From contig OY783204.1 of the NCBI GenBank assembly GCA_963678705.1, positions 806,001 to 870,000 of the forward strand: a stretch of DNA of 64,000 nucleotides. Direction: 5' to 3'. The notes beneath the pieces were generated by a model. The model did not search any database. It was given only the letters and a program-made list of their open reading frames with translations, and was not told the DNA's origin. Position 1 is the stretch's first letter. Every line of letters begins with the position of its first letter. The stretch comes from Panorpa germanica (Eukaryota; Arthropoda; Insecta; Mecoptera; Panorpidae). Below are positions 6,641 to 48,442 of this stretch, piece after piece. The position numbers were made by a program, and so were the translations under genes.

Positions 6641-6654
6641 ACTTTATGCAACTT

Positions 6655-6762: not shown

Positions 6763-6831
6763 GATATAAATATGTGGGTGCGTATGTTATTATTAAGATG
6801 GTTACCTCAACACTGATTATTATTGTAAAGG

Positions 6832-7260: not shown

Positions 7261-7337
7261 ACCATTAATATTCTTTATAATTTGTACTAATTAGTATCAT
7301 TAAAATCATTAAAGAGTAACCATCTCATAATTAAATA
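7261..7337. promoter_or_regulatory. short divergent intergenic region
   Basis: Seventy-seven A+T-rich bases lie between the divergent starts at 7260 (minus) and 7338 (plus). If both frames are expressed they must share this space for promoters. No specific box is convincing. The break in the ATPase gene may also lie here. Confidence 0.25.
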
Positions 7338-7712
7338 ATGGATTATAAATTTTTAAATGATCATGAACAAGTTTCGAAAACGATTTCAAAAGTTGGAGCT
7401 ATTTTAAAAAAATATAAAGAAAATGAGTGTTTACTAGAAAATCTTACTGATGAGGAATTACATTATTTACCGACAGAGTTTTTCTTGCATTATATAATGT
7501 TCTCTACCGATATTGAACAAAACTGGAACCGGCTCCCAATGTATTTAAAAGAAAATCAAAATATACAAGGACGTCGATTATGTTACAAACATTATAACAA
7601 AGGAAACATACAAAGAGATGGTCCTCCATGTCAAATAAGAAACTGTTATGATTGTAATTATATGTTATATTATGATTCTAATGGATGTAGTTATACCCTA
7701 ATAAATAAATAA
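7338..7712 (+). CDS. 124-residue Cys-containing protein, unknown
   Basis: The only plus-strand frame among the minus-strand genes of this part of the element. The N-terminal two thirds look helical. The C-terminal third has a Cys/His-rich stretch (CYKHYNKGNIQRDGPPC, then CYDCN), which could be a small zinc-binding site. No family is recognised. The frame is open, ends in a double TAA and is followed by an A+T-rich spacer. Confidence 0.5.
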   Translation: MDYKFLNDHEQVSKTISKVGAILKKYKENECLLENLTDEELHYLPTEFFLHYIMFSTDIEQNWNRLPMYLKENQNIQGRRLCYKHYNKGNIQRDGPPCQIRNCYDCNYMLYYDSNGCSYTLINK

Positions 7713-7768
7713 ATAAAAGAATTATATACATTTTAAATTTATATATATATATATTATAAATTAAGTAA

Positions 7769-8095
7769 TTACAATAGTTTTGATATTTCTTCTAATATAT
7801 ACGACATGTTTGAAATTATTATCATTTTTAATAATATATCATTAGAATTTAACTCTTCACATTCGTAAAATAAAAATTGAGTTAAAATCTCTTTCGAAAC
7901 ACCAATATTTTTATTTTTTAAATACATTACAATACTATTTAAAAATATATTATATGTTTTAAACAAATTAATTTGCATTTTAGAAAAATGTTTACCAATA
8001 GCATTAATATAATCATTTAAGGATAAGAAATGTATTAAATCAAAAATATTTAAAAATACTGAAATATGAGTTTTAAATTTTGGAAATAATTGCAA
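7769..8095 (-). CDS. 108-residue frame, possible frameshifted tail of the next gene
   Basis: This frame overlaps the 3' end of the 8073-9368 gene by 23 bp in another frame. Its Met lies inside the overlap and is not a convincing start. Leu/Ile/Asn-rich helical sequence continues the composition of the larger protein. The simplest reading is one gene of about 540 residues split by a frameshift near 8080-8095. A separate overlapping gene, or ribosomal frameshifting, is possible. Confidence 0.45.
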   Translation of the reverse strand: MQLFPKFKTHISVFLNIFDLIHFLSLNDYINAIGKHFSKMQINLFKTYNIFLNSIVMYLKNKNIGVSKEILTQFLFYECEELNSNDILLKMIIISNMSYILEEISKLL

Positions 8096-9368
8096 TACTA
8101 TTTGGATTAAATATATTTATTTTATAGTTTGTTGCTATTAATATATTCGATGGTATTAACAATTGACCATTAAACATATTAATCAATTGCTTAATATGCT
8201 CTATAAGCTCAAAATAATCACATAAATTTAACTTTAGTCCAAAATTATATTTATTATAAATGTAAATTTCTGGTTCAAACTGATTAATACAATTTAAACC
8301 TATTTTGATTGAATACATATCTTTTTTTAATAATATAGGTGTTTCATTAAATAAAAATGGAACTGCAGTCAATTTAGAAGGAGTCAAATTTGTATTAATA
8401 CCCTCATTGTTTAAGCAAGTTGTAATTTCAGACATATTCTGTATCTCAATATCTGAATTTAATGATTCAGGTAATGAAAAATCTTCATCAAAAAACAAAG
8501 GATCAATATCTAAATTTACTAGCTCTGTATCGTCTTCCAAATTAAAAATCGTTTCCATTTTTTGATAAGTTATATATATATATTCTTGAGCCTTATTGTA
8601 TAATTTAATTTTGAAAAAGTCTATGCACAAAGTTTTTATTTCTTGTTCCAACAGCTCCAAATTTATTTTTGATGATATATGACTTAAATTATTAAATAAA
8701 TCAATATTGTTATTTATATTATTTTTAATAAAACACTCATAAAAATTAATGTTGTGATTTTTATAATTAATACTTTGAGTATCCTTTAAATCATTAAACA
8801 AATTATTTTGAACTTGATGTAAAGATTTATCCACTAACTTTGAACACAAATTATAATTTTTTAATGTTACTGTTATACAATTAGATATATTAAGCAAGTT
8901 GTCCCAAGATTCTTTCTGCAAATAAACAGAAGATGATTTAAGTTTTTGTTCGTTCAAATCTTGCTGTTGACATTGTATATTTTCTTCAAGAACCATAGTT
9001 GGCTTTTCATAAAAGGTTTGAAAATATATTGTGTAATTTGATAAGGTTATGTGAGGCTGTTCTAAATATTCACTTGCTTCAAAATAATTGGAAATAATAT
9101 TTTTGTTATTTAACAGAATATTCCAATCTTGCTCGAATATAATAATACCATTTCCATTAACCTTTTCTATTTTTAAAATTGCTTCACATAAATTAGTTAC
9201 TTTAATTCCAATTATCACTTGTTTTGATTTACTGTTATTTAAATAATATAATGATTTTAATAAATATACAGAATCATTATATGTTGGTTTAGAATCTGAT
9301 TCATTACTGCTAACACTTAACTTTTTATCGTGATTTAATTTTGGATATGGTTTGTAACGATAGGCCAT
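8073..9368 (-). CDS. 431-residue protein of unknown family
   Basis: A long open frame with start at 9368. Residues about 45-110 (QVIIGIKVTNLCEAILKI through FEQDWNILL) and about 345-415 (MYSIKIGLNCINQFEPEIYI through LCDYFELIEHIK) share a similar beta-rich then helical layout, so the protein may contain two diverged copies of one fold. The linker is Asn/Ser/Glu-rich with an acidic segment (DDTELVNLDIDPLFFDEDF). It could be a structural protein of the element, but I have no family evidence. Confidence 0.6.
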   Translation of the reverse strand: MAYRYKPYPKLNHDKKLSVSSNESDSKPTYNDSVYLLKSLYYLNNSKSKQVIIGIKVTNLCEAILKIEKVNGNGIIIFEQDWNILLNNKNIISNYFEASEYLEQPHITLSNYTIYFQTFYEKPTMVLEENIQCQQQDLNEQKLKSSSVYLQKESWDNLLNISNCITVTLKNYNLCSKLVDKSLHQVQNNLFNDLKDTQSINYKNHNINFYECFIKNNINNNIDLFNNLSHISSKINLELLEQEIKTLCIDFFKIKLYNKAQEYIYITYQKMETIFNLEDDTELVNLDIDPLFFDEDFSLPESLNSDIEIQNMSEITTCLNNEGINTNLTPSKLTAVPFLFNETPILLKKDMYSIKIGLNCINQFEPEIYIYNKYNFGLKLNLCDYFELIEHIKQLINMFNGQLLIPSNILIATNYKINIFNPNSIAIISKI

Positions 9369-9485
9369 TATTATAAAATGTTTAGTTAAACTTGTTAAAA
9401 TATTTATTTATAACTGAAGAAAATATAAAATATCTACAGCTTATATACTCTAATCCCCCCTCAAAAATTAATAAAATTTTCAGCC

Positions 9486-9920
9486 TTAGTCATTATCCCT
9501 AACTTCTAACTCTTCATCTGTCATTATCCATTCTAAAGAATCCATACTTCCAAAACCCTCATCTGATGAGCCTAATATAAACGCTAAACCATTTCTAAAA
9601 TCTCTGTAAAAAGTATTCTTGTGTGTAACATATCTATTATAAAATTGAAACTCATCAAACATATTAAAATCTAACATTAAATAACACTCTAACCCACAAT
9701 TTAATTTCAAATCTATACATAAATTAAATTCATTTGCTATATGTAATACATGTAAATAAACTACATCAATATTATCAATTAATACTGTTAGTACTAATTC
9801 CGAACATCCAATAAAAGGTCGACAATTTATATTAATATTCACTAACTTAGGTAAAATAAAAATATTATCTCCTTCATTCAACTCAAATAATAAGCGACTG
9901 CTAAAACTTTTCATATACAT
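9486..9920 (-). CDS. 144-residue protein, unknown
   Basis: An open frame 117 bp upstream of the 431-residue gene and on the same strand. It is rich in beta-type hydrophobic segments (NIFILPKLVNININC, LVLTVLIDNIDVVYLHVL) and has an acidic C-terminus. No signal peptide or known motif is seen. A lone AACGTAA-type box lies about 25-35 bp upstream (near 9947-9953), like those of the phased array, and may be a shared promoter element. Confidence 0.5.
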   Translation of the reverse strand: MYMKSFSSRLLFELNEGDNIFILPKLVNININCRPFIGCSELVLTVLIDNIDVVYLHVLHIANEFNLCIDLKLNCGLECYLMLDFNMFDEFQFYNRYVTHKNTFYRDFRNGLAFILGSSDEGFGSMDSLEWIMTDEELEVRDND

Positions 9921-10015
9921 TATAATATATTTATTATAACTAAAACGTAATATTGATTCAAACTTTAAAGCTAAAAATTATATGATGCACATAACATATA
10001 ACGCTAATTTAAAAA

Positions 10016-10758
10016 TCAATCCCAATTTTCTTCTTCTTCTTCTTCCTTTAATGAATTCAATGAAACAGAAAAACTTATTTCATTTTCATTTTTGAAATAA
10101 TCAAATTTATTAAGTTTGATTTTTACTTCTAAGTCATACTTTTCAATTGTTCTTAATTTTTCTAATTTTGAATAAAAAGTATGATTAAACTTATCAAGCA
10201 AATATACGTTTTTAACCAAATTCAAATCTATAACTTTATTAATAAAATATAATTGCAAATAGCGTAATTTATGTAATGTATTTGCACTATATATATCATC
10301 AAAATATCCTGTTTCTAATGCTTTCAATATATCTTTAAAATGTTCATGTTGTGCGTCTGATATTATATTATATTTTAGCTCATATTTTTCTCTTAAATTT
10401 AACTCTAATTTTGCTACTTTACTGATTGATACACCTAATATTTTAAATCTATAAGAATTATTAACAAGATGATATTCACTACATTCAATTGCCCGCTGCT
10501 TTCTATGGTAAAGGCATAACTAGACATAAAGACATAATTATATAAATAACTAAATTTTTTAATTGGTAAAACATATAATAAAAAACTAACCTGTAATCCA
10601 GATTCTGCTATTTTCGGACAGGTGTACTTATAAGTGTCATCTGAATACAGGTATACACAACACAAAAAGTTGTTGTTATCTAAAGACATTTTAAAACTTA
10701 TATTATTATTATTAATATAAACAGTTACAACAAAATTAAGTTGTTTCAATACATTCAA
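10016..10758 (-). CDS. spliced small gene, unknown product
   Basis: Two open frames join through a likely 92-bp intron. Exon 1 ends at 10591 with CAG then GTTAGT. The acceptor at 10499 (GAAAG then CAG) keeps phase 0, and exon 2 runs 10498-10016. The start could be 10758 or the internal Met at 10689. Exon 1 holds CCVYLYSDDTYKYTC. Exon 2 is helical, charged and ends in a run of Glu followed by NWD. Most element genes here lack introns. An upstream AG would create a stop, so the acceptor choice is an inference. Family unknown. Confidence 0.42.
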
Positions 10759-16000: not shown

Positions 16001-18480
16001 TATATTTCCCAATATATTTGCTTCATTATCAAAGTTCAATTATAAGATGTTCTTCACAGCACGATGCTTGATGAGCGCATATATATAATAAAAAAAACAT
16101 ATAGACAAAGATGAATGGTGAAAGATGATTGGTGAAATTCCATTAATTTAAATCTTTGAACATGGTAGATTATTTTCTTTAGCAGACATTTCTCGCTTAG
16201 ACTAGCAGATTCTCATTGATGTAGGAGTATATTTATGTCTTATGTTCAAATGAAGTCATGCTGTGTTGTTCCAAATAGTGTTCTTCATATAGGTAAAGTA
16301 ACTCATAGTTCTCCTCTTTTCAAAGGATCACTCCAAAAAGTCACTAGCACATGCGACGCCTTACTGCTTTTAACCACAACGCAGGCTCTAGGAACAGCGC
16401 TATGTGTCTGGAAGGATTCCACCTTACATCGATTTTCTACGAAACTTTTTACGATGGTGTTTCAGAATCCCTTTGCACATCTGCATGAAGCAGACTATAG
16501 TGTCTAGCTACTTCCTTCTCAATGGGGAATCCCTATTATTTGGCGACATATGCTGAGATGCGCTACACTTACTAGTTCTGGAAGTATTATACATAAATAG
16601 GCCCAATTTCTCTGTGTCAGTAGTAATACATCTCTGAATCATCAGAATATAATCTTCATATTGATTGTTAGCAGAGAAGGTAAAGATGATTCACTTCAAA
16701 ATAATATTGGTCAAACATTATCAAGACTTTATGTGTTGCGCTATTGCGATTAATTAATTCTAGTATTGATTGATTGATGTTGAGCATTTCAGTGGCATTT
16801 CAAGCAGAGAGAGGAGTGTACACGTTATAAGTAGTTGCTCGGTTGATGCAGATGCAATCAACAATTTTCCCAGAATACATCCGGACTAGTCGTAAGATCA
16901 CTTCTACCCAATCGATATTGATTTTGTAACTATTTATAAGTCTCAGGCACGTCATAAGCAGTCAACAAAAAATCCTATTAATGGGCCTTTGTAGGAGGCA
17001 CAAATAATTCTTCATACATTCTTGAGACAAAGTTGAAGAAATTTTGAAACTTTTAAGCACTTCTATTTTTGCGTGTCCTATTTTTAATAATTACTTTTAA
17101 GTTTACAACAATACTACATAGAAGAAAAATGCATTTACGACAAACATTTCATAATTGCCGTTTTGAACTGGCATAACATTTTACACAAATGGTCCACAGT
17201 AGCAATTACTAAGCTTATGACAAAAACTTCAATTCGTAGTTACAGCCTTTTTACCCCATTTTACTTTATGAACAATGCATAACTGAATATTTTTGTAACA
17301 ATTTACACGGTAATGCAGAACTAGAATTCTAACGTACGGTGGTAGATGGCTCTTCATTTCGATTTAAAGTGTGACATAAGCGTAGTAAGTGACCTACCTA
17401 TTTTATCCAAACTAAACTTTAACCAAACTTATTAACTAATGGAAAATAACTGATGCATCAAACTACTTACAAATTATCTCTGTAATTTAAATTACATATC
17501 ATTATAATACGAGTTAACTCTTTAAATTAAGTTTTTACATTTCTGCAAAGTAAGGATATATAATTTTAACAATCATTTAACAATTTCCAAATATCTCATT
17601 GGCTGCATCAATAGTTGATTTCCAACTCAAAAGTTAGGAATTTTGGTAGTGCTATCAGTATCATTATTTTAACAAAGTTATAGCAACATAATTGTTGACT
17701 ACCTAATTACACTTACAAACACTTTTACAATGAATTACACAACAAAACGTAAATTTGAATGACCAAAATATTGAAATTTGCGAGAACTTCAATTGTAATT
17801 CTCATTTTGTTGTGTAAACCATTCGAATGTACAATCAAAAATGCTATTACCAAAATAATAAAACATCAGCTGTCTTCATAAGAACCTTATCATTTATTTA
17901 AGTTAAATTTACTATACTTTATTGATATTTATTGTATTTAATATACTTATTACTTAGTGAAAATTCAATAACAATCTCTCAGAATCATAATCATGACAAA
18001 ACTCGAGTTACAAAATGTAACGCAATATTTGCAACTAGCATTAGCTGCCAAAAAGCTCCCGGAATGCTTTGCTGTTGCGATGCAAACTGCTATAAAAGTA
18101 GTTAACTTAATTAGAAAAAGTGCACTTAATACTCATCTCTTTAAACAATCGTGCTCTGATATGAACTCGTAGCACGAAAATCTGCTTTTCCACACGGAAG
18201 TACTAATAATAAGAAAATTCGTTCTGTGAGTCTAAATTTCAAATACATTTTGTTTATTTGGAACGATTTTTTCGCACAACTAAATAAATTGAACCTTCAC
18301 CTGCAATAGTGTCACGAAATTTGAAAACGGACAAACAATTAGTGCTGGATGAGGTGGGCACTGGCACAATAAGGAAAAGTTAATAGGCCCATAATAATAA
18401 TTACAACAGAAATTGAACAAAATAGTGAAGATTATGCTCCCGACTTCATCGGACATAATAGGGGAGTAATACTTGATGGT
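13082..18480. other. long region without a supported gene
   Basis: Frames here are short and lack recognised domains. A minus-strand frame at 13966-14280 has no recognisable family. There is a T-rich tract at 15520-15660 and a possible small hairpin at 17733-17817, with 13-bp arms (TTACACAACAAAA and its complement). The rest is unremarkable A+T-rich DNA, possibly decayed transposon sequence. Confidence 0.5.
17733..17817. repeat. short inverted repeat, MITE-like
   Basis: Arms TTACACAACAAAA and TTTTGTTGTGTAA are perfect complements separated by about 57 bp. The spacer itself has partial self-complementarity around AATTTGCGAGAAC and TTCTC. It could be a tiny MITE or chance in A+T-rich DNA. Confidence 0.3.
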
Positions 18481-18894
18481 ACCATGATCCTGTCTATTTA
18501 CAACAAGTGGAGTTTACAAACTCACATTCAAGAAACAACATGGCGTGGTGTGCCATTTTCCAAAATGTCACAAAGTTCCTACATAACTTTACATGACTTT
18601 AGTGTGAAGAACATGACTTTAAGTGTGTTGCTGTCGGATGCTGTCCCAAAGGGAATTAGGTCAGCATGAGAGACATGCTCCTCTTGTTTTGAGAAACGAG
18701 CATCGCATAGAGCAAGTGTTGCAAGGAGGTAGTAAGCGTGGACGAGTCAGTGAGCAGGAGACAGAGGTTAACTCTGTAACCCTGTCACTAATAAGTCAGA
18801 GTCCAAGTGACTCAAGCAATGTTGAACAAGCAACTTGTCAGGAGGTACTTGCAAACACCTCGGCCGATAGAATCGACTGCGACTAGACAATAGT

Positions 18895-19470
18895 TTGAAT
18901 GAATTGAAAGACACGCAAAGTACCAGTTATGATAATGACCTTGACCATGAAAGTAGCGGAACTCCACCCGAAATACTTTCAGGGACTCCAGAAAAAGACG
19001 CTGCAGAGAAAGGGGAGCATTCATTTACTGTTCCCAACCCGATTACCAAAAAATCAAAACGAACTGCTACCAACATACGACAAGAGGCTTTTGAAATGAT
19101 GAAGTCTGTTTATAATAGTAGGAAAAAAAGAGAACAATCAACGCGTGATGATTTGGACGTTTTTGGAGAACTGATTACTCGAAAAATACGTAGCTTAACA
19201 ATCGTATATGCTAAAGCAAAGGTCCAAAATCTAATTAATAATATTCTATATGAAGCAGAGGTAGGGGTATACGATAAGCCTGCGGAAGCATACATAACAA
19301 CCCTTTCGACTTCAAGCGGAACGACATCACCGAATGAATTGATGAGTTCTAAAACCAACTCCATTGATGCCTACAACGAAGTACTGCCAAGAGAAATTGA
19401 AAACGAGGCTTTGACTTGGGATGCACTCAACGCTTTTGGCGTTTACCCTGAAAAAGATTATATAGCTTAG
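18895..19470 (+). pseudogene. MADF/BESS-type protein, C-terminal fragment
   Basis: A 191-residue frame. Residues about 75-120 (RDDLDVFGELITRKIRSL through NILYEAEVGVY) match the BESS motif layout: an acidic residue pair, an aromatic, a helix, then a second helix ending LYEAE. The upstream part is Ser/Thr/Glu-rich and disordered, with a basic KKSKR cluster. MADF-BESS proteins are the DNA-binding partner of PIF/Harbinger transposases and also occur as host regulators. A Harbinger transposase fragment lies 350 bp downstream on the other strand, favouring the transposon reading. The N-terminal MADF domain is not found. Confidence 0.55.
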
Positions 19471-19817
19471 CTTGTCTATATTATTATTCTTTTATATGTA
19501 TTATTATATGTATTATTATATTCCATTATAATATTTTCTTATATACAATATTCATGTTAAATAAACCCTTGTTTTATCTACTTTACCATATCCTCCTATA
19601 TTATAATATCCCAGGTGTATGTTTATGTTTGTTTCTTGCTGAAATTCGTATGGTACAATAAAAAGGGCCTCATCAATGTTTTTGAAATTTACTTATTTCG
19701 TAAAGAAAATAATTATAAGATTTTGCATGTGTATTTTGCATCAAATTTTGAGAAAAAGTTGGTCAAATAATAAATAATAAATTGAAAATATTTTATATTT
19801 GATATATAATTTATATA

Positions 19818-20075
19818 TCAAATATATTTTATTGATATATAATTTATTAATATTTCAAAATCAGAACTTGATATTCTGGTGAAGTTTTGAAATGAGGATC
19901 GTAATTCTCCATCTAATCCAACATCGTCATTATTTAAATCAAGTAATAACTTTTCAGCGTCATAATCAAATCTCCTTTTTAGTAAAGAGCTCACCCAATA
20001 TCTGCGTTTTTTTCTTGATATATCGTTTATTAAAAAAAATCCACTTTCAATTATAAAATTTTCGTCGTCGGACAT
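19818..20075 (-). pseudogene. PIF/Harbinger transposase, N-terminal fragment
   Basis: From the Met at 20075 the frame has KKRRYWVSSLLKRR, then LLLDLNNDD and SSFQNFTRISSSDFEILINYI. This is the N-terminal helical signature that precedes the DDE nuclease in HARBI1-like transposases. The frame stops at 19818, before any catalytic residue, and the DDE_Tnp_4 domain is absent. It converges on the BESS-type fragment, as expected for the two genes of one Harbinger element. Confidence 0.62.
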
Positions 20076-20251
20076 TGTGCCTGCTAGCCAAATGATAAAC
20101 AACAACTGACAAGCGAAAATATTCACAAATACCAAACTGCGTGTTCAACCCAAGAAGAATAAAGCAACACAACCATGTTTCTTTTGATCTTTACCGACTC
20201 GAGATGGGACTCTGTTGTGTTGCAAACAACTGCAATAAATGACAAAAAAGT

Positions 20252-20493
20252 TGCAAAAACTGTCTAGTTGGTGTAAACAGTGATGCAACTTTAAAAAAAA
20301 ACATCTTTTTGTTGCAGTTTAATGCAACTGTCTATCTGGTGTGAAACCGGTATTATGGGTCTGTTCAATACGAATAGTCTGTTGCCGAAAAACACAATTG
20401 TTGCAAAAAAAAGTTGCATATTTGTTGCATAAAACAAATGCATGCAACGTTGCATAAAACTGCAACTGTCTATTTGGTGTGAAACCGGCATTA
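20252..20493. repeat. 33-bp direct repeats around a 105-bp spacer
   Basis: The 33-bp segment at 20323-20355 recurs at 20461-20493 with two mismatches; its core is GGTGTGAAACCGG. A third diverged copy lies at 20252-20285 (CTGTCTAGTTGGTGT). The spacer holds several TTGCA words. It may be subterminal sequence of a DNA transposon. Confidence 0.6.
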
Positions 20494-20624
20494 GGATACA
20501 AACTCAATTAAGATTGGTTTTCCAAGAAGATAAAATCGACAAAGTGGAAAGAGTAAACTTTTTTGCATTTGAGACGCAGAATCGAATTATTGACGGACAG
20601 TGTACTGAGATTAAAAGATAAATA

Positions 20625-22023
20625 TAAAAGTACATTACACTCCATTTTAAAAACTTAAAAAGTCGTTTTTTCCTGACTGCGAAGACAAAGGTACCCGTAA
20701 GTAAACGGATAGCTGACATGAAAGCTGATTTAAAAAATAGTCCATACCATGTATTTGGAGACCACTCGAATTGCGAAGATTATTTCTGCACCAAGAAAAA
20801 TGCAGCGGTGGAATTGGAAACAAATATTGTGCCTGATTTGCAAACGTGTGGTCTATGGACCGATATAAATTATATATTGAATTTTGTTATTAATCTGGCA
20901 AACAGTCTAATTCATAATGTAAACAATAACGCTGCCGAATGTTTCAATTCTATTGATGCAAAATACGTAGGAGGAAAAGGAATAAATTATACACTTCGTG
21001 GATCTTATGAAGCAATATGTAACATAGCTGTTTCATCTTACAACAGAGGGAAGGAGGTGCACAGGTCATTGCATAAGGCAGTACTTGATGGAAAAAGTGC
21101 AGGAAAATATACGAATGAATATTCAAATAGAAAATTTAGAGAAAATAAAAATATAAAACTGAGCCGTTTAATATTCCTCAAAAATAAAAGACCGCAGAAA
21201 AACGTTAGTCATGCTGATGAAGATTATGGCTTGCAGGAACAGCCTGATATGGAGCCCGCTTATTATCAAAACAAACGAGAACAATTTAAAAAATCAGTTT
21301 GTAAAACCTCAGCGGCGATAATTGAACTTGAAAAGAATACAAAAGAGCAAAGTCGCAATACCTTGTAGAAACAAGAAAGATACAAGCGACTAATATCATC
21401 TTCATTTAGTAAAGTTTGCAAAATGAGAAAGAAGACAGAAGATCTTGTACAAATTTAGTCAAAAACCTTCTTTGTTACACATTTTCTGAAAATAAAGCAA
21501 CAAGATATGGTATAGAAAAAGAACCTGTGGCTAAAAGTTATTTATCGAAGTGATGTATCGACTAAATGTAGAAATAGCAGATGCAGGTTTATTTATTGAC
21601 GAAAACTATCCATTTCTAGCAGCTAGTCCTGATGGACTAATAGGAGAAGATGGTTTAATAGAAACTAAATGTCCAGCTTCCGCAAGTATGTTAACACTAA
21701 TTGCGGCAATTGAATCAAAGAAATTAACATTTGGAACAATTGCAAACGGTTTGTTTAGATTAAAAAGAAATCATGATTTTTATTAACAAATACAAGGGCA
21801 GCTACAAGTTACACAACGCAAATATTGTTTGTTTGTGTTTTGGACTCCTGTTGAAAAACCAAACAATATTCTCTATGAGAAAATTGAAAGAAATGAGAGG
21901 TTTTGGGAAGAAGAAATGAAATCAAAATTATTATTTTTTTATAACGAATGCTTACTTCCCGAGAGAGTAAACTCTCTATACCTTCGAAATATTCCAATTC
22001 GAAATCCAGATCGTAATGCATAA
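20625..22023 (+). pseudogene. Mutator-like protein with YqaJ-type exonuclease domain, broken
   Basis: The upstream part, open to 21368, has a His/Cys segment (FGDHSNCEDYFC) and a block with NNAAECFNSIDAKYVGGKG and SYNRGKEVHRSL, which I associate with Mutator-like transposase proteins of animals. The downstream part (about 21440-22023) has the lambda-exonuclease/YqaJ signature: FLAASPDGLIG followed by IETKCP, with the Asp and Glu-x-Lys catalytic pattern kept. Stops at 21366, 21456 and 21552 and several frameshifts break it. A Mutator-like plus YqaJ fusion may pair strand cleavage with 5' end resection. No terminal repeats were found. Confidence 0.6.
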
Positions 22024-22774
22024 TTTATAATCAAGAAAACACAGTTTTATCTTGAAAATGCAATGACTTTTGTTAATAAATGCATGCAATAATTATATTT
22101 GTATATCAATATCTTGCTTTTATTTTTAATTAATGTTAGAATTAAGATTTCTTTGTTTCAATTCATTTATATTTTATGCCTATTTGTTTCTATATACACT
22201 GTGCTCGCTTTGGGCAAACCATAATATTGCTTATGTAAACATCCTTTGTTTTACGATTCATTTCTACTAGGCATCGACACTGCGTTTTTGTTCCTAATTC
22301 CTTCTTATTGCTTCAACACTCAAACGTACAGCACACATAACCTTTGGTGCATAAACATAAAATAAAAAATACACATATTTTTGTTTATAACTTAAACCGC
22401 AAGTTACATTTACTAAGTGTCGTAACTAGTATTCTCATCAATTAAAATATTTAATCAATTTATATGTAATTCAATAGTGTAGTTTTAAAATAAATGTAAT
22501 CTAAAAAAGTTCTGATGTTTTGTTGTGTCTTTTGATATAAATAAAAAATAACTATTAATTACTTAATGGTCCTTCATAATCAAATTATGCGCCCACTAAG
22601 CTATTGAAAGGAACTGAGCGACATTTGCCGTTCGAGAACTTGGATACCGCCGACAGATCGCAAATACGCCCTAGTCAGCCTATAGATCTCTATAAGGTCC
22701 AAACTCCTCAAACAACTTTTAAAATCTAACAATACCGAACTTTTAAAATCTAACAATGCGCCATATCATCCGTA
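22024..22774. other. A+T-rich gap without a supported gene
   Basis: No domain or repeat is recognised. The sequence turns more G+C-rich after about 22600, where retroelement-derived sequence starts. Confidence 0.5.
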
Positions 22775-22885
22775 TGTTTACGATGTTTATTGCCAGGTCA
22801 TAAAAATCGTCTATGTAATTCCTCTGCTTGTGAGATTTGTCAGAAGGGACATCACTCGCTCGTACATTTAACAGACGAACATTGG
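22775..22885 (+). pseudogene. BEL/Pao gag zinc knuckles, fragment
   Basis: The frame encodes CLRCLLPGHKNRLC, a CCHC knuckle (CX2CX4HX4C), then CEICQKGHHSLVH, the second knuckle with a double His. This paired arrangement is typical of BEL/Pao gag-pol proteins just before the protease. The upstream in-frame stop at 22751 and loss of everything around it show a relic. Confidence 0.6.
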
Positions 22886-23003
22886 AACATAATGAGGGAC
22901 TATTCATGATTAGAGAATGTAAACGATACACAGGTATCGCCGGCTGAGATCATGACTACTCCGGACTTGTTACTGGCGGACCTAGAGTAGATCTTCCGCA
23001 GTA

Positions 23004-23115
23004 GTGGAAATAATACCCGCGTCTGCTGAAAATATTGCCTCTGAGGAACACTTTTCCCGCACCTTTACTCGAGACAAAGATGGTCGCTACGTATTACCGT
23101 TACCTTGTACAGTCT
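23004..23115 (+). pseudogene. BEL/Pao pol fragment fused to gypsy RNase H
   Basis: About 37 residues containing [21 protein letters not shown]. This is the segment that precedes reverse transcriptase in BEL/Pao pol; the BEL element at 36.6-42.3 kb has an equivalent (TTTRNSDGRFVITLPLK). At about 23112 the same frame becomes a Ty3/gypsy RNase H. The join is seamless in frame, indicating recombination or template switching between two element types. Confidence 0.55.
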
Positions 23116-23400
23116 CATACGCATCTAGAACATTAAACGGCGCGGAAATAAATTATTCTACTATTGAAAAAGAATTGTTAGCAATAGTTTGGTCCATTAA
23201 AATGTATAGACATTATGTATATGGCAGGAAATTTAAAATTATTACAGACCATCAACCCCTAACGTGGTTATTCTCTATAAAAGATCCTGGCTCCAGGTTA
23301 ATGAGATGGTGTTTAAAACTTAGTGAATACGATCAATACGAATACCGACGATTTAAGCAGATTACCGGTCAACACTCTAGACGAAGTAATTAACCCTAAT
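23113..23400 (+). pseudogene. Ty3/gypsy RNase H domain
   Basis: The frame has [20 protein letters not shown] followed by LLAIVW, then [13 protein letters not shown] and [13 protein letters not shown]. These include the Glu (YSTIEKE) and Asp (TDHQPL) that define the gypsy RNase H. The DDLSRLP end motif appears in another frame near 23350-23375, so a frameshift lies between. No reverse transcriptase precedes it. Confidence 0.85.
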
Positions 23401-23905
23401 AAACAAATTGAAGTAATCACTATTATTAATAGCAACGACGACACATCTTACACGGAGTTTGACAAAATAAAGAATTCCATAAAAATAATTAATAAAAACA
23501 TAAGCATTGTACAGGATGATTTATTCAACCAACCTGACAATATTGCACACTGTGTTTCCGCTGACCTCAGGAATGACTATAGGAATAGCCTTAACCATTG
23601 ATGGACAACTACAACAACTTAAAGAAGTTTGATTTAGAATCCACATACGTAATCGCGTCAAATAACATTCAAAATAATAAAATCATTTATCATTTAGCTA
23701 CTAAAAGCAGGTATTTTAATAAACCAAAGTATGAAAATATGTACGTAACATTAATTAAACTCAAAGAGTTACTTGAGATAGATAACATATCAAGCCTTAG
23801 AATCCCTAAATGGGTTGCGGGTTAGATAAATTAAATCGGGAAATAGTTTATACTATGATTTAATATCTATTTAGAAACACCGAAATAAAAATAACTGTTT
23901 GCGAT
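23401..23905 (+). pseudogene. TARG1/OARD1-like macro domain between RNase H and integrase
   Basis: Motifs occur in family order. DDLFNQPDNIAHCVSAD (about 23515-23565) corresponds to the N-terminal strand and the AHC loop. TIGIA (23576-23590, shifted frame) fits the ADP-ribose-binding GAGIA loop. IIYHLATKSRYFNKPKYEN (about 23683-23740) is the TK..KP segment. GCGLD (23813-23827, third frame) is followed by KLNREIVYTMI and, after a stop at 23863, by KITV near 23890. TARG1/OARD1 macro domains remove ADP-ribose from protein carboxylates using a Lys in the TK segment and the Asp of GLD; both positions look conserved. At least two frameshifts and a stop break the copy. Its place in pol implies a polyprotein domain. 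Confidence 0.72.
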
Positions 23906-24219
23906 AAAGTAGCAGCCCCTCAAGCGGAAGATATAATATCTTTAACCGATAGTGAATCGAAACCTATCATTATTTCGGATAATTCAGCTGAGGAAGACAA
24001 TGATATAAACGACAAATTATTAATGAAACTTCAAAAGGGTAAAATAAATTACGATATTTTTAAGGAGTCTAATGATTATGTTAATTTCCATAAGCATGAA
24101 AATCTTATCATAATAGATTATTTCGAAGATAAGAACGAAATAACTAATGAATTTCTAAAAGAGCTGGAATTAAATCAGCAGAATAAAAATTATGATAAAC
24201 ACATAATGGTGAGAATGAC

Positions 24220-24567
24220 ATGAATGAGTTAGAATTGTATAATTTACTATCTGACTATACTGGCATTAAAAATCCCACTGAAGTTCAATATATATCAAAA
24301 ATTAGACATTTATCTCTCCCTAGACTACTAACAAATAAATATAACAATAAGTTAAACTTCGTCATCTGTAATAATTGTATCATAGAACCCCTAATTGAGG
24401 ATAGATCACAAATCATATTGAACTATCACACTAGCAAACTAAACAACCATAGAGGTATCACAGAAACTTATAATAAACTCCGCAATCAATATTATTGGTT
24501 GGGCATGAAAAAAGATATCGAAACCACAATATCCAAATGCGATGTGTCAACGACACAAAACCAGTAG
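24220..24567 (+). pseudogene. gypsy integrase zinc-binding domain
   Basis: The frame has LPRLLTNKYNNKLNFVICNN, then NYHTSKLNNHRGITETYNKL and YYWLGMKKDIETTISKCDV. It is the H-H-C-C zinc finger of gypsy integrase, except that the final Cys of the expected CxxC pair is replaced (CDVSTT). Between it and the macro domain lies an acidic linker (about 23906-24219) rich in Asp and Glu. Confidence 0.8.
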
Positions 24568-25176
24568 ATAAAATCAGTCTGTCCCTATGACCATTACGGA
24601 AACTTTAAACAGACCCTTCGCCCTATATGTTAACTATAATGTTAACCATAATAGATGAGTTTAGTAAATTAGCTCAGGCATATATATTACCAAACAAAAC
24701 CGCTTTAGAAGTCTGTAAGAAATTGATGATATGTTTCCAGCATTACGGTATCCCGCAACGTATCCATTGCGCTCAGGGTAATGAGTTCAAAAATGAACAT
24801 TTTTACGATTTAGCCGCTATGTATAACTTTACAATTACAAATAGTTCGTTCTGTGACACACCCACAATCAAACGGAACGTTGAAAAGATTTCATTCCACA
24901 CTAGCCGACATAATAAGAATAGGTGTCAACGAATTACGGGTTAATCGTCTAACTAATTATCTTAGACAGGCAATAATTACTTGTAATAATTTTATTAGTA
25001 CAGCCACTGGCTATACCCCAATAGATTTACTATTAGGGCACACTAACCTCAAAAGTGCAAATGAATTAGATTTTCAGAAAACTTTATATACAACTTTTAT
25101 GAATGATCATAGAGATAAGATACATCATATTTGCAATCAAAGTAAACTAAAACAGGAGACGAGCAAAGAAAAGTGA
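24568..25176 (+). pseudogene. gypsy integrase catalytic core, inactive
   Basis: Core motifs are present: IIDEFSKLAQAY with the first Asp (about 24645), a GIPQRIHCAQGNEF segment, then in another frame HPQSNGTLKRFHSTLADI. The second catalytic Asp is replaced by Ala (codon 24771-24773) and the Glu of the third motif by Lys (24883-24885). A frameshift lies at about 24860. The C-terminal part (YTPIDLLLGHTN) follows. The copy cannot catalyse integration. No LTR could be identified on either side. Confidence 0.8.
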
Positions 25177-25266
25177 ATATTTTGACAAAACTAAAGAATA
25201 TTTTGACAAAATTATGTTTTTTTTAAAGACACAATGACTTCAAGAGATTTAAAAGGTAGCGTTCCA

Positions 25267-25584
25267 TCTAAAGTTGAAGGAGGTGACCGGATGCAGATGT
25301 GTCAGAGATTGTACTAGTAAACGATTATACCACATAAATTGATAATTAAACCGTGTCACCACAAACTCCACAACCATCTTCCTGTCGGCGTGTTTTCAAG
25401 TCACCACGAAAGAATAGACAATAAACTCCTTCAAATTGAGGAAGAAAAGCTCAAATTTTTCAAAGGAAATACAGATGATAGCGAAACGCAGTTTTTTATG
25501 AGTTTACGCTCTTTTCTTATAAAAAGTAACTCCTTCTCGTCAAATGGTAGTACGATCGAAGATAATGGAAATTTTGATATGTGA
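25267..25584 (+). pseudogene. possible BESS-motif fragment
   Basis: The frame contains NKLLQIEEEKLKFF, then DDSETQFFMSLRSFL, which resembles the acidic-then-helical start of a BESS motif. It is short and no MADF domain is seen. It may be another Harbinger-associated relic. Confidence 0.3.
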
Positions 25585-26160
25585 GGGAGGAGGCCACCTC
25601 ACAATATTTACTAGCCTACCACTGGTGATGGGTGATGAATATGCATTATCCACACTACGTGATCAGCAAGGATCAAGTCATACGTTTTTCACAAATGATG
25701 AACCTATCTCCTACACCTGATCTATGAACTCTATTTAGACCTGTTGAAAATTTATGTCAAGTTGTAAAATTTAACAACTAAACTAAATGACTAACACGAG
25801 AACAACGTACTGGAAACAGAGAACCGTTGTATAACGCATGTCATAAGCTTATGTTTTTACAGAAACCATAGTTTTAGTCATATGTCTTAACAAAACCACT
25901 TGATAAAAATTCCCAAGGAACGCTCAAAAGAAACGCTCGAATATAGGTTTAATAGAGGTTTTACAGCTAAAGTTTAGGTACTAAAATCGAAGTCAAATTG
26001 CAAGCATCTAGGCCAAGGCTGATGTCATACAATTGATGACAGCAGCGCGGTAATAAATCCTTAGAACGTTTCCAACGAGTCAGAAATCGTGAAACAAACA
26101 CAGTCCACATCAATAAATGTATTGTCAGTGAAAAAAATAGAAATAATATAAGCATTGAAA
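25585..26160. other. gap, probably decayed ISL2EU-like sequence
   Basis: No supported gene. The last part (about 26090-26190) reads into the ISL2EU-like frame that resumes at 29103 after the hAT insertion. Nothing else is recognised. Confidence 0.4.
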
Positions 26161-26190
26161 ATACGATGGATACAGTAATGGAGCCAGGTG
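26161..26190 (+). pseudogene. ISL2EU-like transposase, 5' fragment left of hAT
   Basis: Codons ATGGATACAGTAATGGAGCC lead into GCCAGGTG, the target duplication. The reading frame matches that resuming at 29103, so the hAT element landed inside coding sequence. A start at 26166 is possible but not certain; the frame extends further upstream. Confidence 0.5.
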
Positions 26191-29094
26191 TAGGGATGTT
26201 AAAAAATAATCGATTTTTATTTTAATCGATTATTATTTTCGTATAATCGATTTTTTATAATTAAAGTTTTAAAGTTTTGTTTACAGACCTATAAGTGCTT
26301 TTTATGGATTGTTTGATAACTATGTAACACAAATCTTTAGCAGGTTGTTGTGTGGTTAGAACTGTTATGATTAAAGAATTTACGTTTTCCCCGCCGATGA
26401 ACACTTAATCATACTAAATCCTTCATAATAGTTGATATTAATCGCTTTTAAACACGAATTTATATATAAAACACTATAGAAATAACACTCAAACTGAAAT
26501 GTAAACAAACAATTATTATCTAAGTTGACATTTTAGCAATAGATATTTTTTTTTATTTTCTCCAATTGAGACGAGCAAAAGAATCTAAGCTTATACAGCC
26601 ATAGTTTATATTATTTATAAGTTTTTTTTTTTGTTATGGCTTGTAGCGTGGCGCTAACTCTGCCAATGTCAAGTGATTAAAGAGACACGAACTGAGTATT
26701 GAAATTGACCGGTGTTTTGAGTTTAAAAGAATTACGAAAAAGTTTGTTTGTCTTGTTGACGTTTGTTTTAGTGTTGCCAGAAAATCCAGAAATACAAAAT
26801 AGGTTTGCGGAAATCAATTTTAATTTTTGTGAAATTACCTGTTTTTTTTATTGTCTTAGAACTTATGTGAAGATAATATTCAAGATATCAGCATATCTGG
26901 GAATAAAGATGCACCGATGCAATCTCCAGCAACAGAAATGGAAGGTGGACCTTCAACTCCAAAGCGTACCAGAACAAGTATTAGATCTTCTTTTGCGAAA
27001 ATTTTGGAATATGGCTCAGATGGAAAAAAATATAAGGAAATAACTGAAAACATAGCGGAAATGATATGCCGGGACAGTCTACCCTTCAGTATAGTAGAAG
27101 GATCAGGTTTCAAGAAATTAATGAAGACCGTAGCTCCATTGTACAAGGTTCCGTGCCGTAAAACTATCACAGATCTCATAGATACTAAATATGAAGAAAA
27201 AAAAACCCTTGTCATACAAAAATTACGATTAGTTAAAAACGTTTCCCTTACAATTGATGAATGGAAAGATTTGCAATTAAGGAGTTTTTTGGGTGTAACT
27301 TTGCAATTCACTTCATAGAAAATTTTGAAATGAAGTCAATTAACATTGCATGTGAACCACTTCACGATAATCATACAGGAGAGTATTTGTCAGAGATGAT
27401 TATTAAGATTTGTGATGTCTGGGGTTTGTCCCACGATAATATTGTAAATATTACTACTGACAATGGCAGTAACATCGTTAAAGCCGTTGAGATTACTTTT
27501 GGTCGAGCTAAGCATTTTCGGTGTTTAGCTCATACCCTTAATTTAGTGGTAGGCAATTCAGTAAATATACCAGAAATTAAAATTTTCTTGGATAAGGTCC
27601 GAAAAATAGTAACTTGGTTCCACCAAAGCGGTGTTGGTGCTGAGGAATTGAGACAATCGCAAACCATTCAAAATGTTTCCGAGGGAAAATTAAAACATCT
27701 CGTAGGGGACGTCTCAACAAGGTGGAACTCGCAACTATACATGATTGAACGTTTTATTTTATTGAGCAGCAATATAGGATCTGTTTTGATAAATCACCCA
27801 AATGCGCCCCCAATGCTTAAAGCAAATGAAATTGTGGTGCTCAAAGAAATTGAAAAAATTTTAAAGCCTTTTCATAGCGTCACTGAACAAATGAGTGCGG
27901 AAAAATACGTGACTTCCAGCAAAGCTATACCGATAAGCAAATGTTTGAGAGCTGTGTTAGATACAGTTACAGTGTTTTGGCAAAACAACTGAAACAGTCC
28001 TTACAATCAGAATTTAATAAATGATTCGAAAACATCCAAAAAGTGCACCTTCTTTCAGTTGCAACGTTTTTGGATCCTAGATTTTAAAAAATTCATTTAG
28101 ATGATGACCCTTTATCCTTATCGAAAACAATACATTATATCAAGACATATTTAAACTGTCATACTAAAAATGATGATAATTCGGGAGCAGCTAGTTCTGA
28201 AACATTAGTTCCATCGAAAGCAACGGTCAACGGACAAGATATCTGGCAGGCACATTATGAAAAAATAAAGGCATTGGCATGTAACTCGTCAATGGTTAAC
28301 AATACCGAATTGGACTTATACTTTGCGGTACCGCTATCGGATCTTATGGTAGATCCTCTCAATGTCTGGCAGAGCTCCGAAGGGACTACTCCTAAGTTAA
28401 CCGAATTGGCGCTGAAGCATCTCTCTGTGATGGCCACTTCTACTCCATCCGAAAGATTATTTTCCAAAGCGGGAAATATGGTCAGGAAAACACGAAACCG
28501 TATTTTAGGAAAGAGATTATCAAAATTATTGTTTTGAAACTGCTTACTGGAAAAATTATGGGAATAATATTATTCTAATTAAATGTATCATTTTTTAGCA
28601 TCATGTGACAACATGTTAACGTTGTCATTTAGCTTTTTTTACTTATCGTTTAATTTTATTTTAATACTACTCTTACATAAAACGAGAGTGAAAATTAGTG
28701 CCAATAATTATTTATCATTTTGTTGAGGTGCTCATTTAATTTATATTATAATAAAACGTTTAATGATACTGAGAATTTGTATCAATAATGATTTTTGGTT
28801 TTATTATTCCTTACCTTGAAAGTTTAAAAGAACATTAATTGCTATGATTTTTAGTTTTGAATTGTTTATTTTTTTATTCATATTATTTTATTTCATTTTT
28901 AATCTGATTAATTGTTAAAATGAATCTCTTAGGTTTATTATTGGAATATGAAAAGCATGGAGGATTTTAAATAATAGAAAAAAAATCGATTATTTATTTT
29001 CATTAAAATCGATTATTGACAAATCGATTAATATTTAATAAAATGAAATCGATTTTTATTAAATCGATTCTTTTCCATTCATCTCACATCCCTA
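26191..29094 (+). mobile_element. hAT element 1 with perfect 8-bp target duplication
   Basis: The 2904-bp element starts TAGGGATGT and ends ACATCCCTA. It is flanked by GCCAGGTG at 26183-26190 and 29095-29102, a perfect 8-bp duplication as hAT makes. Both subterminal regions carry several ATCGATT words (26208-26260 and 28985-29070), likely transposase binding sites. It encodes a broken hAT transposase on the plus strand. The intact duplication suggests an undisturbed insertion. Confidence 0.93.
26917..28537 (+). pseudogene. hAT transposase of element 1, broken
   Basis: Frames 26917-27318 and 27261-27992 overlap across a frameshift. Coding sequence continues with stops near 28021 and 28087 into 28274-28537. 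Motifs are NVSLTIDEWKD (first Asp), NITTDNGSNIVKA (second Asp), HFRCLAHTLNLV (the CxxH segment), DVSTRWNSQ, and MATSTPSERLFSKAGNMV, the hATC dimerisation segment with its Glu. This is the ZBED-like group. No BED zinc finger was found upstream of 26917, so the DNA-binding exon is lost or too diverged. Confidence 0.88.
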
Positions 29095-36611: not shown

Positions 36612-37347
36612 TGGTTGAGTTTGGACCTATGGATCTATATAAGCTTGAGGTTTGCTTATCTGCGATGTTGACGGTTTCCAATTCTCGGATTGCTTGATTG
36701 CATCCAACTCCTTTGATAGCTATAGATTGCGCCAAAACTTCTCGAAGGACCTTTTTGTTATTAAATAATTAATAACAATTTTTTATTTTGCTTTAAATCA
36801 AATAGCAGCGAAACACTAGTATTTTACATAAAACATTTATTATACAAATACACTTGACGAATTACAATAATTGAAACTTAAATGAATAACTATATGTATC
36901 AATGTTACTGTGATACAATTCACTATTAAAATGTTTTATTATAATTATTAAACTGTTGAAAGTTGGAGTTGATAATTTAGATGTTTACTGTTCGAGATGA
37001 TAGTTAATAATTTAAAGATATTTAGTGATGTTTACTGTATGAAGTTTGTGTTAATAATGAATATTTTAATAGTGATTTAACAGTACATTGGTACAAAAAG
37101 GCATTTGGCAGGCCAGCTGGTGTCCTTGGTACGGGCTGGTACGGTCGAATACACAATGCCAGAGTAACAATGACAATAACTTTGTTAGTTAATTCAATAA
37201 CAAAGAAAGATAAAATATTTGATTAAACAATAGAATTATTACAGAACTTAAGAACTAAAAATATACAAAATTAGATTCTAAATAAAATATATTAAAGAAT
37301 GCGAAATATCTATATAAAAATATAGGTTGTGTATGCGTTCTTTACCA
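36612..37347 (-). repeat. BEL/Pao 3' LTR
   Basis: This is the terminal 736 bp of the element. The part 36851-37347 (497 bp) is identical, as far as I can read, to 41815-42311. The outer 240 bp differ from the other LTR except for the final TGGTTGA. Confidence 0.75.
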
Positions 37348-37832
37348 TACTCCCGCGCGTTGAAAATTGGAAGAGTCATCTTGGTTTTCAACTGATGTTC
37401 TGTAAGTAGCGGAACGAGATATTGCACTAGACGCTTTGTTTTTCCCTTAGCTGTCTTGATAGTGGCTGCTCGAGTCGCTGAAACTTCACTAACACTTAAT
37501 TTCACTGGGCTATCCAACATCCATTGCGATGGAGGAAGATTTGGCTTCTTGATTAAGACCAAAGTTCCTTGCTGCGGTACAGCATCCTTTGACATTTTCC
37601 AGTTCACGAGCTGATTGCAGCGTCCTAGGTATTCGCTTGACCATCGTTTCCAACAACTTTGAATAAAGTCTTGAAATTGTGAGTAGCGCTGCGTTCGGCT
37701 TAATTTAATTGGAGCGTCCTCTGCAGGAGCGATTCTAATGTTCTGCCGTCCTAATAAGAGGTGTCCAGGTGTGAAGGGAATAAGGTCATTGGGATTATTG
37801 GAAACGGGATAAAAGGGGTGGAAATTGAGCAT
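37278..37832 (-). pseudogene. BEL/Pao pol C-terminus (DUF5641-type)
   Basis: The frame has LIPFTPGHLLLGRQN, then FIQSCWKRWSSEYLGRCNQL and VPQQGTLVLIKKPNLPPSQW. This is the conserved segment after the BEL/Pao integrase core. The core itself is missing upstream. The start at 37832 is a fragment boundary, not a true start, and the frame runs into the LTR. Confidence 0.85.
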
Positions 37833-37859
37833 TGCCTCAATTTGAGTTTGCAGTGTATA

Positions 37860-38509
37860 AGTGTGTTTGAAGTTGGTATGATAATTTAATTTCGTTAGTT
37901 TGGCAAGTGGATAAAAATGTAAAATACTGTATTTAAAACAGTTAGGTTTAGAGTGCCATTTAACGATTAAATTTTGAAATATTCTATACCTCCTGGATCG
38001 ATATAGAAGAGTTTGTCAATTATGATTTTGCGGTTGATAGATTTAAAATAAATACAAGAACCATGTGCACTTACTAATGCATCACAAAAACCATGAATTT
38101 CAAATGCTTTGGAATTCTTGATTAATGATTTTCGTGATATGGATGCATTGCTTAAGGTCGGTAATTGCTTTATTAAAGGAGTCCATGTTTTTACTAAATA
38201 TTCTGGAATTTCAACATTCCAGTGTAGATTTGTTAGCCATAATTGTTGTCTCAATAGCATAAACGGTATGACGCAGAGTGATAATAATCCAAGCGGATCA
38301 AAGATTTTGGCAATGAAAGATAGAACATTTCTATTGGGTAATTTTATAGGTGGATCAAAATGGGCGATATTGTATTTGAAACAGTATGTTTTTGAGCACC
38401 ATTTGACAATTAAAATTTTGAAATGCTCTAAGTCTGCGTGATCTATATAAAAGAGTTGGTCTTGAATAGTGTTGTCTAAATCGAATAAAATAATGGGATC
38501 ATTCGACAT
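37860..38509 (-). pseudogene. BEL/Pao A17-type region with terminal duplication
   Basis: Contains VLSFIAKIFDPLGLLSLCVI, then QQLWLTNLHWNVEIP and FEIHGFCDALVSAHGSCIY, the region after RT in BEL/Pao pol. It follows the upstream frame in phase after one stop at 38510-38512. Its first segment (LFYIDHADLEHFKILIVKW) recurs at the end as LFYIDPGGIEYFKI and continues in a shifted frame to about 37880. So a block of roughly 40 residues is duplicated. Confidence 0.75.
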
Positions 38510-40075
38510 CTATTTTCGTAAATAAAATCCTGCACTGCTTAATGTTTCTATTGTTTTAATACAGCGTAGCTTGAATTCTGATAGATCATTTGATCCAGTC
38601 AGTAGCTTATCAACATATGAATCATTAAGGGTGGTGTTTGTGGCATATGGATGTGAATTTAAAAATAATAATTTAGACCTTGTATGTAAGCTAATTAACC
38701 ATAGTTGTTGTATCATTAATTTGCATGGTATGTCACAAGGCAATAGTAATGCGAGTGGATCCAAAGTTCTAGCTATTAATGATAAAACATTTGCTTTGGT
38801 TAATTTCATAAGTAATTGAATTGAATTATGCAATTCCTTGACCGTAAAGATGCCGTTTGTCTTGTTTCTAGAATTTTGAATGAAACGTAAATAGTATGTG
38901 GTGACGCTATTGATCGATTTAAAATTTGAAAATTTGTCAAATATAAAATTTGACTTGGCTATGGAGTAGTTTGACAATATGAATGATTTATGATGTTTAC
39001 TAGTAACACGCTTTCTTTGTGGTAAAAGAAAGGGTTTAGTAATTGCTGATTTGGAATCTCCTATACCGTGAAGCGGTAAAATATATGTAGGTTCGGATGA
39101 ATTTTGAATAGTGTTAGTGGTCATGTGACCTAATCGTATATATTCATTAATGAATGCAGAATACATAGATTTATGTTGTGTATTTCTATCAAATTTTCTT
39201 TCCAATGAAAGAAATTGTTTGGTAGCTGTGGTTTTGGAATTTCCTAGAGCTGATGTGGGCAATTTTAATGGTAATGTAATTACGAATCTACCATCTGAGT
39301 TGCGAGTAGTAGTTTTGTTACAATGATCATGGCATGCTTGTTCTTCTGAAGTTAAAGTCCTACATTTTTTAACAGACTCGCTTTCACAAACCTTGGGAAT
39401 TTGAGTTTGTTCTTTTATAATTAAAGTGCTACATTCCTTTACATACTCGCTTTCACAAAACTTGGGAATTTGAGTTTGCAAGGATGTGTGATAATGATGC
39501 GCATGATTGTTGTTGGTAACAGATTTGTATTTAGTTACTATCCAACCCAGCGAAGTGTTTTGCAAATGCAATCGATCATTGGATAGTGTTGATTTGCCTA
39601 CGCGTAATAGTTTCCAAAAAATATCAGCTCCTAACAATAAATCCACAGATTGTGGTTCGTTAAAACTAGGATCTGCTAGTTTTATGCTATGCGGTATTGA
39701 TAGATTGACAATATCCAATGTGATGTGTGGAATTTTGTCGGTTATTGTGTCTGTAAGCAGACAATTTACAAAAGTTTTGTAATTGTTGTTTGATGAATGC
39801 AAAGTGATTTTTGCTTGTTTATGAGTTTTAGTTTCGGAGTTATCAATTCCGGTAGTAACTACATTTGAATTTGTAGTATGAATGTTTAATTTTTGTAATA
39901 AACTCTTGGTAATAAAACTTGATGGACTACCGTTATCCAGAAGAGCGCGTGCAGTAATTGTTTTACCGTTCTTGCCAGGAATGTTCACCAAAGCGGTTGA
40001 TACCATAACTTGACTTGTGCGCTGTGAGTGTGCTGGAAGTGGCAGCTTTAGGAATTGAAGTGCTTGATGCTTCAA
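38510..40075 (-). pseudogene. BEL/Pao protease region and scrambled pol fragments
   Basis: About residues 25-170 are a DUF1758-type aspartic protease domain. They have ALLDNGSPSSFITKSLL, where the usual Asp-Ser/Thr-Gly reads Asp-Asn-Gly, and LLLGADIFWKLL. A tandem repeat of about 23 residues (QIPKFCESEYVKEC, then QIPKVCESESVKKC) follows. LPLKLPTSALGNSKTTATKQ and a second diverged LPLHGIGDSKSAITKP come next. An A17-like block (LIARTLDPLALLLP) precedes an RT remnant YVDKLLTGSND, whose active site would normally read YVDD. The block order is not that of an intact BEL/Pao pol. Confidence 0.8.
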
Positions 40076-48438: not shown

Positions 48439-48442
48439 CGTA

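Follow-up and report, generated by a model that had tools for sequence, protein, structure and literature searches.

Within a 64,000-nucleotide stretch of the Panorpa germanica genome (contig OY783204.1, positions 806,001 to 870,000; hereafter the window), positions 23110-25190 represent the 3' part of a Ty3/gypsy pol, with RNase H from profile position 31, a long insert, and the zinc-binding and core domains of the integrase. The interval 23401..23905 in this insert is the relic of a macro domain of the TARG1/OARD1 class, which was built into the pol polyprotein, after RNase H and before integrase. A domain of this type in this place had been proposed in an original prediction made from the letters of the window, and the matches to the RT_RNaseH, TARG1 and Integrase_H2C2/rve profiles confirm it. 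The features of the element are as follows.

22986..23390, plus strand: RNase H, 3' two thirds (Pfam RT_RNaseH 1.4e-29, profile 31-105)
23317..23598, plus strand: tether DDLSRLP (23347), linker, macro strand 1 and AHCVSAD loop (23545) (TARG1 profile 12-42, E 1.3e-4)
23410..23949, plus strand: segment absent from a macro-less sister subfamily, i.e., the macro domain with linker edges (18 copies, abutting blocks)
23504..23629, plus strand: MTIGIA loop remnant in a shifted frame (read from the sequence)
23595..23822, plus strand: macro middle with the Lys84 equivalent, codon 23703 (TARG1 profile 60-123, E 7.7e-11; OARD1 chains E 0.014)
23810..23860, plus strand: MGCGLDK with the Asp125 equivalent, codon 23825, in a shifted frame ended by TAA at 23861 (TARG1 profile 123-139, E 0.0095)
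23864..24220, plus strand: last macro strand EIKITV and a long acidic linker (OARD1 tblastn reaches 23899)
24199..24564, plus strand: integrase zinc-binding domain (Integrase_H2C2 1.3e-14)
24609..24941, plus strand: integrase core, first piece (rve 2.1e-7, 31.5 bits, just below the 32.6-bit cut-off)
24814..25173, plus strand: later integrase part in a shifted frame (open frame with no Pfam match of its own; similarity to relatives stops at about 25190)

The macro domain in the window copy

The TARG1/OARD1 profile, 155 positions long, was built from 14 relatives of TARG1, cellular and phage-like, with the window pieces among the rows of the source alignment, and was searched against every six-frame piece of the window that is 15 amino acids or longer (2,599 pieces). 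The three top-ranked pieces are 23317-23598, 23595-23822 and 23810-23860, which follow one another in profile order and all sit in or overlap the interval; profile region 43-59, a loop, found no match in the window. The fourth-ranked piece reached E 0.68, and the best value among 50 sets in which every piece was shuffled was E 0.029. Human OARD1 was used in tblastn as a test free of window letters, and it aligned to the window in three collinear plus-strand blocks (23509-23899, joint E 3.1e-11). The same search with two phage relatives gave E 4e-10, and 1.5e-9 to about 1e-8, and the best of 200 dinucleotide-shuffled windows reached E 0.007 with OARD1 and 8e-4 and 0.005 with the two phage queries. 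The profile order and the collinear blocks agree with the original prediction, in which macro-domain motifs were read in the correct order across three frames.

Frame 1 (23317-23598) carries the gypsy tether DDLSRLP and the macro motif AHCVSAD within a single open frame, and therefore both once belonged to one protein. Frame 3 (23595-23822) carries ATK..YFNKP..YEN, frame 2 carries MGCGLDK from 23810, and EIKITV lies in the frame opening at 23864. The AHCVSAD loop is kept, and the phosphate loop persists as the remnant MTIGIA in the shifted frame 23504-23629, a piece that by itself gave no TARG1 profile match. The equivalents of the catalytic residues Lys84 and Asp125 of TARG1, which are so named in the part of PMC9411070 used here, are both kept in the window copy (AAA at 23703 and GAT at 23825), as the original prediction had suggested; the relevant part of PMC7050489 gives Glu125 as the partner of the Lys in TARG1.

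In a phmmer search of PDB, piece 23595-23822 matched OARD1 chains only (5 of 5, E 0.014-0.017), and in NCBIfam it gave a DarG match of E 0.0087, far below the family cut-off. No macro structure was matched in PDB by 23317-23598 and 23864-24220, Pfam-A returned no Macro match for any of these three pieces, and the window was not among the places reported in a Pfam Macro search of the same genome.

State of the window copy and its duplicates

The window copy is dead and cannot itself make the macro domain, because it has frameshifts and an in-frame stop and its 5' part is absent. Its macro domain passes through three frame changes (frames 1, 2, 3 and 2 in succession) and meets an in-frame TAA at 23861. 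Similarity to relatives begins abruptly at about 23110, macro-less relatives also matching from 23110, and no long terminal repeats (LTRs) were found within 21000-27500. The letters upstream of about 23110 seem to belong to another element. The open frame 22986-23393 is chimeric, its BEL/Pao-pol-like letters giving way directly to gypsy RNase H at a junction near 23110; it contains GRYVLPLP, which we take to be a BEL/Pao pol motif. No candidate env frame was noticed after the window copy, where no env profile search was made.

A copy 99% identical to the window element is present at C7:272220, and the chimeric junction is apparently common to it. This copy was rejected as an independent carrier or insertion. 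Most of window 18001-27713 recurs at C7:267600-277500 (L230) with 87-98% identity and gaps, as a duplicated nest of transposable elements, and since the similarity, within the stretch compared, spans most of that interval, C7:272220 is a duplicated locus. A third copy of the same layout (C15:1707, 84-88%) has compared flanks unlike those of the window, and its macro segment is interrupted by about 540 bases.

The linker at 23930-24000 includes two hydrophobic-acidic stretches, IISLTDSES and PIIISDNSAEED, which presumably resemble SUMO-interaction motifs. The PIIISDNSAEED stretch recurs, slightly altered, in one macro-less copy inspected.

Carriers elsewhere in the genome

The genome of the window was searched in 249 contigs (464 Mb). 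The middle macro piece was found in at least 33 places (E up to 0.01; 150 of 443 candidates scored), and an OARD1-like protein query, for which 150 of 564 candidates were scored, found at least 150 TARG1-like places; by our count, 57 of these 150 lie in open frames that are 1,000 amino acids or longer. A sample of carrier frames was scanned with the TARG1 profile for the macro domain and with Pfam for the other domains. The order reverse transcriptase (RT), RNase H, macro domain, H2C2, rve runs unbroken in one frame at five loci (L172, L180, L184, L234 and L236), so that the order RNase H, macro domain, integrase, expected from the original prediction, exists in intact frames of the same genome. 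At L169 and L175 the frame holds RT, RNase H and macro domain and ends before the integrase; L233 is the same copy as L169, and there an integrase zinc-binding frame follows. In L195/L227, the frame with RT and RNase H is overlapped by a macro frame, and the integrase comes after one stop. Other orders were protease, macro domain, RT and RNase H at L235, and macro domain and RT with RNase H after one stop at L226. The macro domain thus occupies two positions within gypsy pol in this genome, i.e., before the integrase in the sampled lineages A, B, C, E and F, and before RT in lineage D.

The open-frame relatives match the TARG1 profile with E down to 1.9e-58. E values against human OARD1 are 3.7e-44 for the L234 domain and 1.1e-17 for the domain of L228, a copy of L184. 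Affinity to the MacroD class was not found for these two open-frame domains, both of which match OARD1 best in PDB (five of seven matches for L234, with two weak others, and five of five for L228). Macro domains of lineage B score best against the window macro pieces (46% for the middle piece), and an env frame in the lineage B element L229 gives a Baculo_F match (6.8e-61). LTR pairs were present in two of seven carrier stretches, with 97.9% identity in L227 and 99.3% in L228, and therefore both elements moved recently.

Proposed role of the domain

On balance, the best explanation is that the built-in TARG1-class domain would strip ADP-ribose placed by the host and so protect replication of the element. 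Hydrolase activity, counter-defence and a role in integration are all inferred for these domains. TARG1 acts on proteins, RNA ends and DNA breaks, as given in the parts of PMC6582358 and PMC7050489 on ADP-ribose removal; a passage of PMC9411070 adds ADP-ribosylated thymidine as a substrate of TARG1, DarG and SCO6735. The protease could free the macro domain, or the domain could remain joined to RT or integrase, and it would act inside the particle or the pre-integration complex. There it might remove ADP-ribose that host PARP or TRPT1 had placed on Asp/Glu of element proteins or on RNA and cDNA of the element at their phosphate termini, whereby reverse transcription and integration would be protected. 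A wider proposition is put forward tentatively and with more doubt: gypsy elements of this genome may have taken in a TARG1-class hydrolase, now present at two pol positions, with which they would clear host-made ADP-ribose off their integrase or off the ends of their RNA or cDNA, in which case ADP-ribosylation of nucleic acids or proteins would be an unrecognised germ-line defence against retroelements and the macro-less subfamily a natural escape or loss.

The residue survey was given 32 loci, 22 of which had the full domain in one frame, some of them near-identical. Lys84 is kept in 21 of the 22 domains (L174 being the exception) and Asp125 also in 21 (Ser in L236), so that 20 have both; both residues are kept in the L234 and L228 domains. 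A recognisable loop with a Met start and an Ala end is kept in 21 of the 22 relatives, the exception being lineage F. In pairwise comparisons, the ratio of nonsynonymous to synonymous substitution (dN/dS) was 0.16-0.29 in 8 of 14 pairs, one of them with dS near saturation. Domain identity is 44% between L169 and L172 and 47% between L169 and L180, with the catalytic residues kept.

Several observations weigh against the proposed role. The 22 domains were selected for completeness in one frame, the other 10 of the 32 loci having been dropped. L174 has Asn in place of the catalytic Lys, and the eight domains of lineage C have EFDLD or VFDMD in place of GCGLD. In lineage F (L236) the frame is open, and yet the Asp and the loops are gone and all motifs except the Lys column are lost. 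The dN/dS value was about 0.7 in 3 of the 14 pairs and uninformative in another 3; the pairs overlap and are not independent, and the values come from small counts with no significance test. The Pfam Macro cut-off was passed in a single scanned frame, that of L169. Moreover, a DNA search found 18 close relatives without the macro domain (90-93% over the linker block), a subfamily that has amplified to at least 18 copies, one of them with identical LTRs, and the domain is therefore dispensable there. With the decayed lineage F and this subfamily, the domain is not needed in every lineage.

Concerning the Pfam result, the Macro model performs weakly on the TARG1 class, unbroken domains from phages and retroelements included, and over the whole genome it reported two places only, the frames of which give the impression of MacroD-like host genes. 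The macro-like segment of L236 (2-3100) lies between RNase H and integrase, other lineage F places are in frames of about 1,650 amino acids, and the segment of this lineage is possibly a pseudo-enzyme.

Relatives without the domain

In the 18 macro-less copies, the block ending at 23409 and the one beginning at 23950 meet to within 1-2 bases, and the linker from 23950 onward is retained. The break was common to within a base in the 16 junctions inspected, and a long open pol frame crosses the junction in four of eight copies checked (L201, L202, L204 and L212). The LTRs of L231, a copy of L204, are 100% identical. Apparently, the 18 copies derive from one frame-keeping deletion. The original prediction had regarded relatives lacking the domain as a sign of chance insertion in one copy; such relatives do exist, but they look like the outcome of one derived deletion and not like evidence of a chance insertion. 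A diverged copy (L221, 75%) is also without the domain; its break points are different and it gives no profile match, yet immediately beyond the 5' break it reads like the macro-bearing copies and unlike the 18 (GAAGTAAT).

In a tree of RT-RNase H sequences (18 of 29), the macro-less copies grouped with lineages B, C and F, separated from D and E by a branch of 98/96, the inner branching being not resolved. The sampled members of B, C and F have the macro domain between RNase H and integrase. In the macro-domain tree, the clade of B and C (100/99) stood away from D and E (90/82); long branches meet there, and F could not be placed. The simplest account would be an ancestral domain lost in the 18 copies and, by a separate event, in L221. 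A less simple course, in which the line of the window copy lost the domain and later regained it, may also have been taken.

Alternative explanations

The main rival to a protective hydrolase is a reader role. Like that of the remodeller ALC1, the macro domain would chiefly bind ADP-ribose at DNA breaks or on PARylated chromatin and steer integration to such sites, with hydrolysis secondary. This is unlikely, but it would fit the place of the domain before the integrase in lineages A, B, C, E and F and the altered GCGLD of lineages C and F, and the ALC1-like class includes both readers and erasers in the account given in part of PMC7050489. On the other hand, the Lys/Asp dyad required for TARG1 hydrolysis is kept in 20 of 22 domains, and in lineage D the domain precedes RT, far from the integrase.

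It is less probable still that a captured sequence has been tolerated as a pol linker without lasting function. The good amplification of the macro-less subfamily, the decay of motifs within the open frame of lineage F and the three pairs with dN/dS of about 0.7 could be explained in this way, whereas the low dN/dS of eight pairs, the retention of catalytic residues between domains of just 44% and 47% identity, and the two insertion points in pol speak against it. That the interval is a processed pseudogene of host OARD1, or a chance similarity in one gypsy copy, can be given almost no credence. The window copy is indeed broken and has no Pfam Macro match, yet the tether shares one open frame with the macro start, the C15 locus shows the same layout between different flanks, and open frames of relatives have the domain in its place. 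Chance similarity was rejected on the shuffle controls of the tblastn and profile searches, and a pseudogene or one-copy insertion on those open-frame relatives.

Comparison with known systems

The domain resembles TARG1 (OARD1, C6orf130), a member of the ALC1-like class, in sequence and in the Lys84 and Asp125 equivalents. TARG1/OARD1 is a small stand-alone enzyme of the cell, whereas here the domain stands inside a retroelement polyprotein. The TARG1 layout in gypsy pol is an instance of domain capture by LTR retroelements, a known kind of event. Fish epsilon-like endogenous retroviruses are also retroelements with a macro domain; according to the passage in PMC4977317 that cites Basta et al. 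2009, the macro-domain proteins of these viruses of ray-finned fish are encoded by additional reading frames, whereas the domain here is inside gypsy pol in two positions. Accessory domains in gypsy elements are treated in part of PMC9289625, with chromoviruses and with orchid elements carrying an AlkB RNA demethylase. Such elements likewise have a domain of cellular origin, an enzyme or a reader, fixed within an LTR retrotransposon, and the orchid domain too is an eraser, acting on a nucleic-acid mark; the domain and its chemistry differ, and in the orchid elements it is coded as an additional reading frame. Macrodomains of coronaviruses, alphaviruses and iridoviruses, as described in a section of PMC7729036, are similarly virus-coded and thought to counter host ADP-ribosylation, but are of the MacroD type and not of the TARG1 class. 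The env frame of lineage B with its Baculo_F match is a likeness to errantivirus-like gypsy elements; no errantivirus or other Metaviridae with a macro domain was described in the literature searched. TARG1 is said to be only occasional in invertebrates in the relevant part of PMC4245714, and a text search of that paper found neither 'transpos' nor 'integrase'. In agreement with the original prediction, which knew of no description of the layout, none of a macro domain in gypsy pol was found in the literature searched, which covered subscription journals little.

Two window pieces found nothing in the protein database. In an alignment search, none of the best 120 of 6,642 rows had an RT, RNase H or integrase domain, the proteins being 0.55-1.75 times the query length and hence not full pol. 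Searches of viral contigs gave no locus save one phage, and searches of prokaryote contigs gave none. Nothing in 163 loci (the best 80 of 98 viral and the best 80 of 95 prokaryote TARG1-like loci, and L001-L003) matched the RNase H or integrase of the window. The Lactobacillus phages LP65 (orf36, L001 409-855) and LpeD (orf101, L002 436-891) encode TARG1-like macro domains with no annotated function; that of LP65 matches OARD1 at 2.6e-27, and that of LpeD is 73% identical to it.

If the proposed role is true, an ADP-ribose eraser has been fixed in pol of several gypsy lineages, which would point to ADP-ribosylation as a pressure on retroelements, as has been argued for RNA viruses. The genome offers natural contrasts between closely related elements with and without the domain, between motifs kept and lost, and between the two insertion points, and the function of an accessory retroelement domain is therefore testable.

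Other elements in the window

A Polinton/Maverick-like set, by impression, occupies 265-10519, with an integrase with chromodomain, a Pox_A32-type ATPase and a 700-amino-acid frame with Endonuclease_7. Positions 20628-21783 hold a weak piece of a Mutator-like transposase with a YqaJ-type nuclease piece after it, and BEL/Pao remains (Peptidase_A17 and a weak aspartyl protease) lie on the minus strand at 37278-40075. A TNP-type transposase frame at 43880-45055 has an inverted piece, near-identical by eye, at 48426-48896. The open frame of 834 amino acids at 57348-59852 is an unusual mix, having DUF1759, which we take to be a BEL/Pao gag domain, together with a retroviral protease, and ending in letters that by eye are like gypsy RT.
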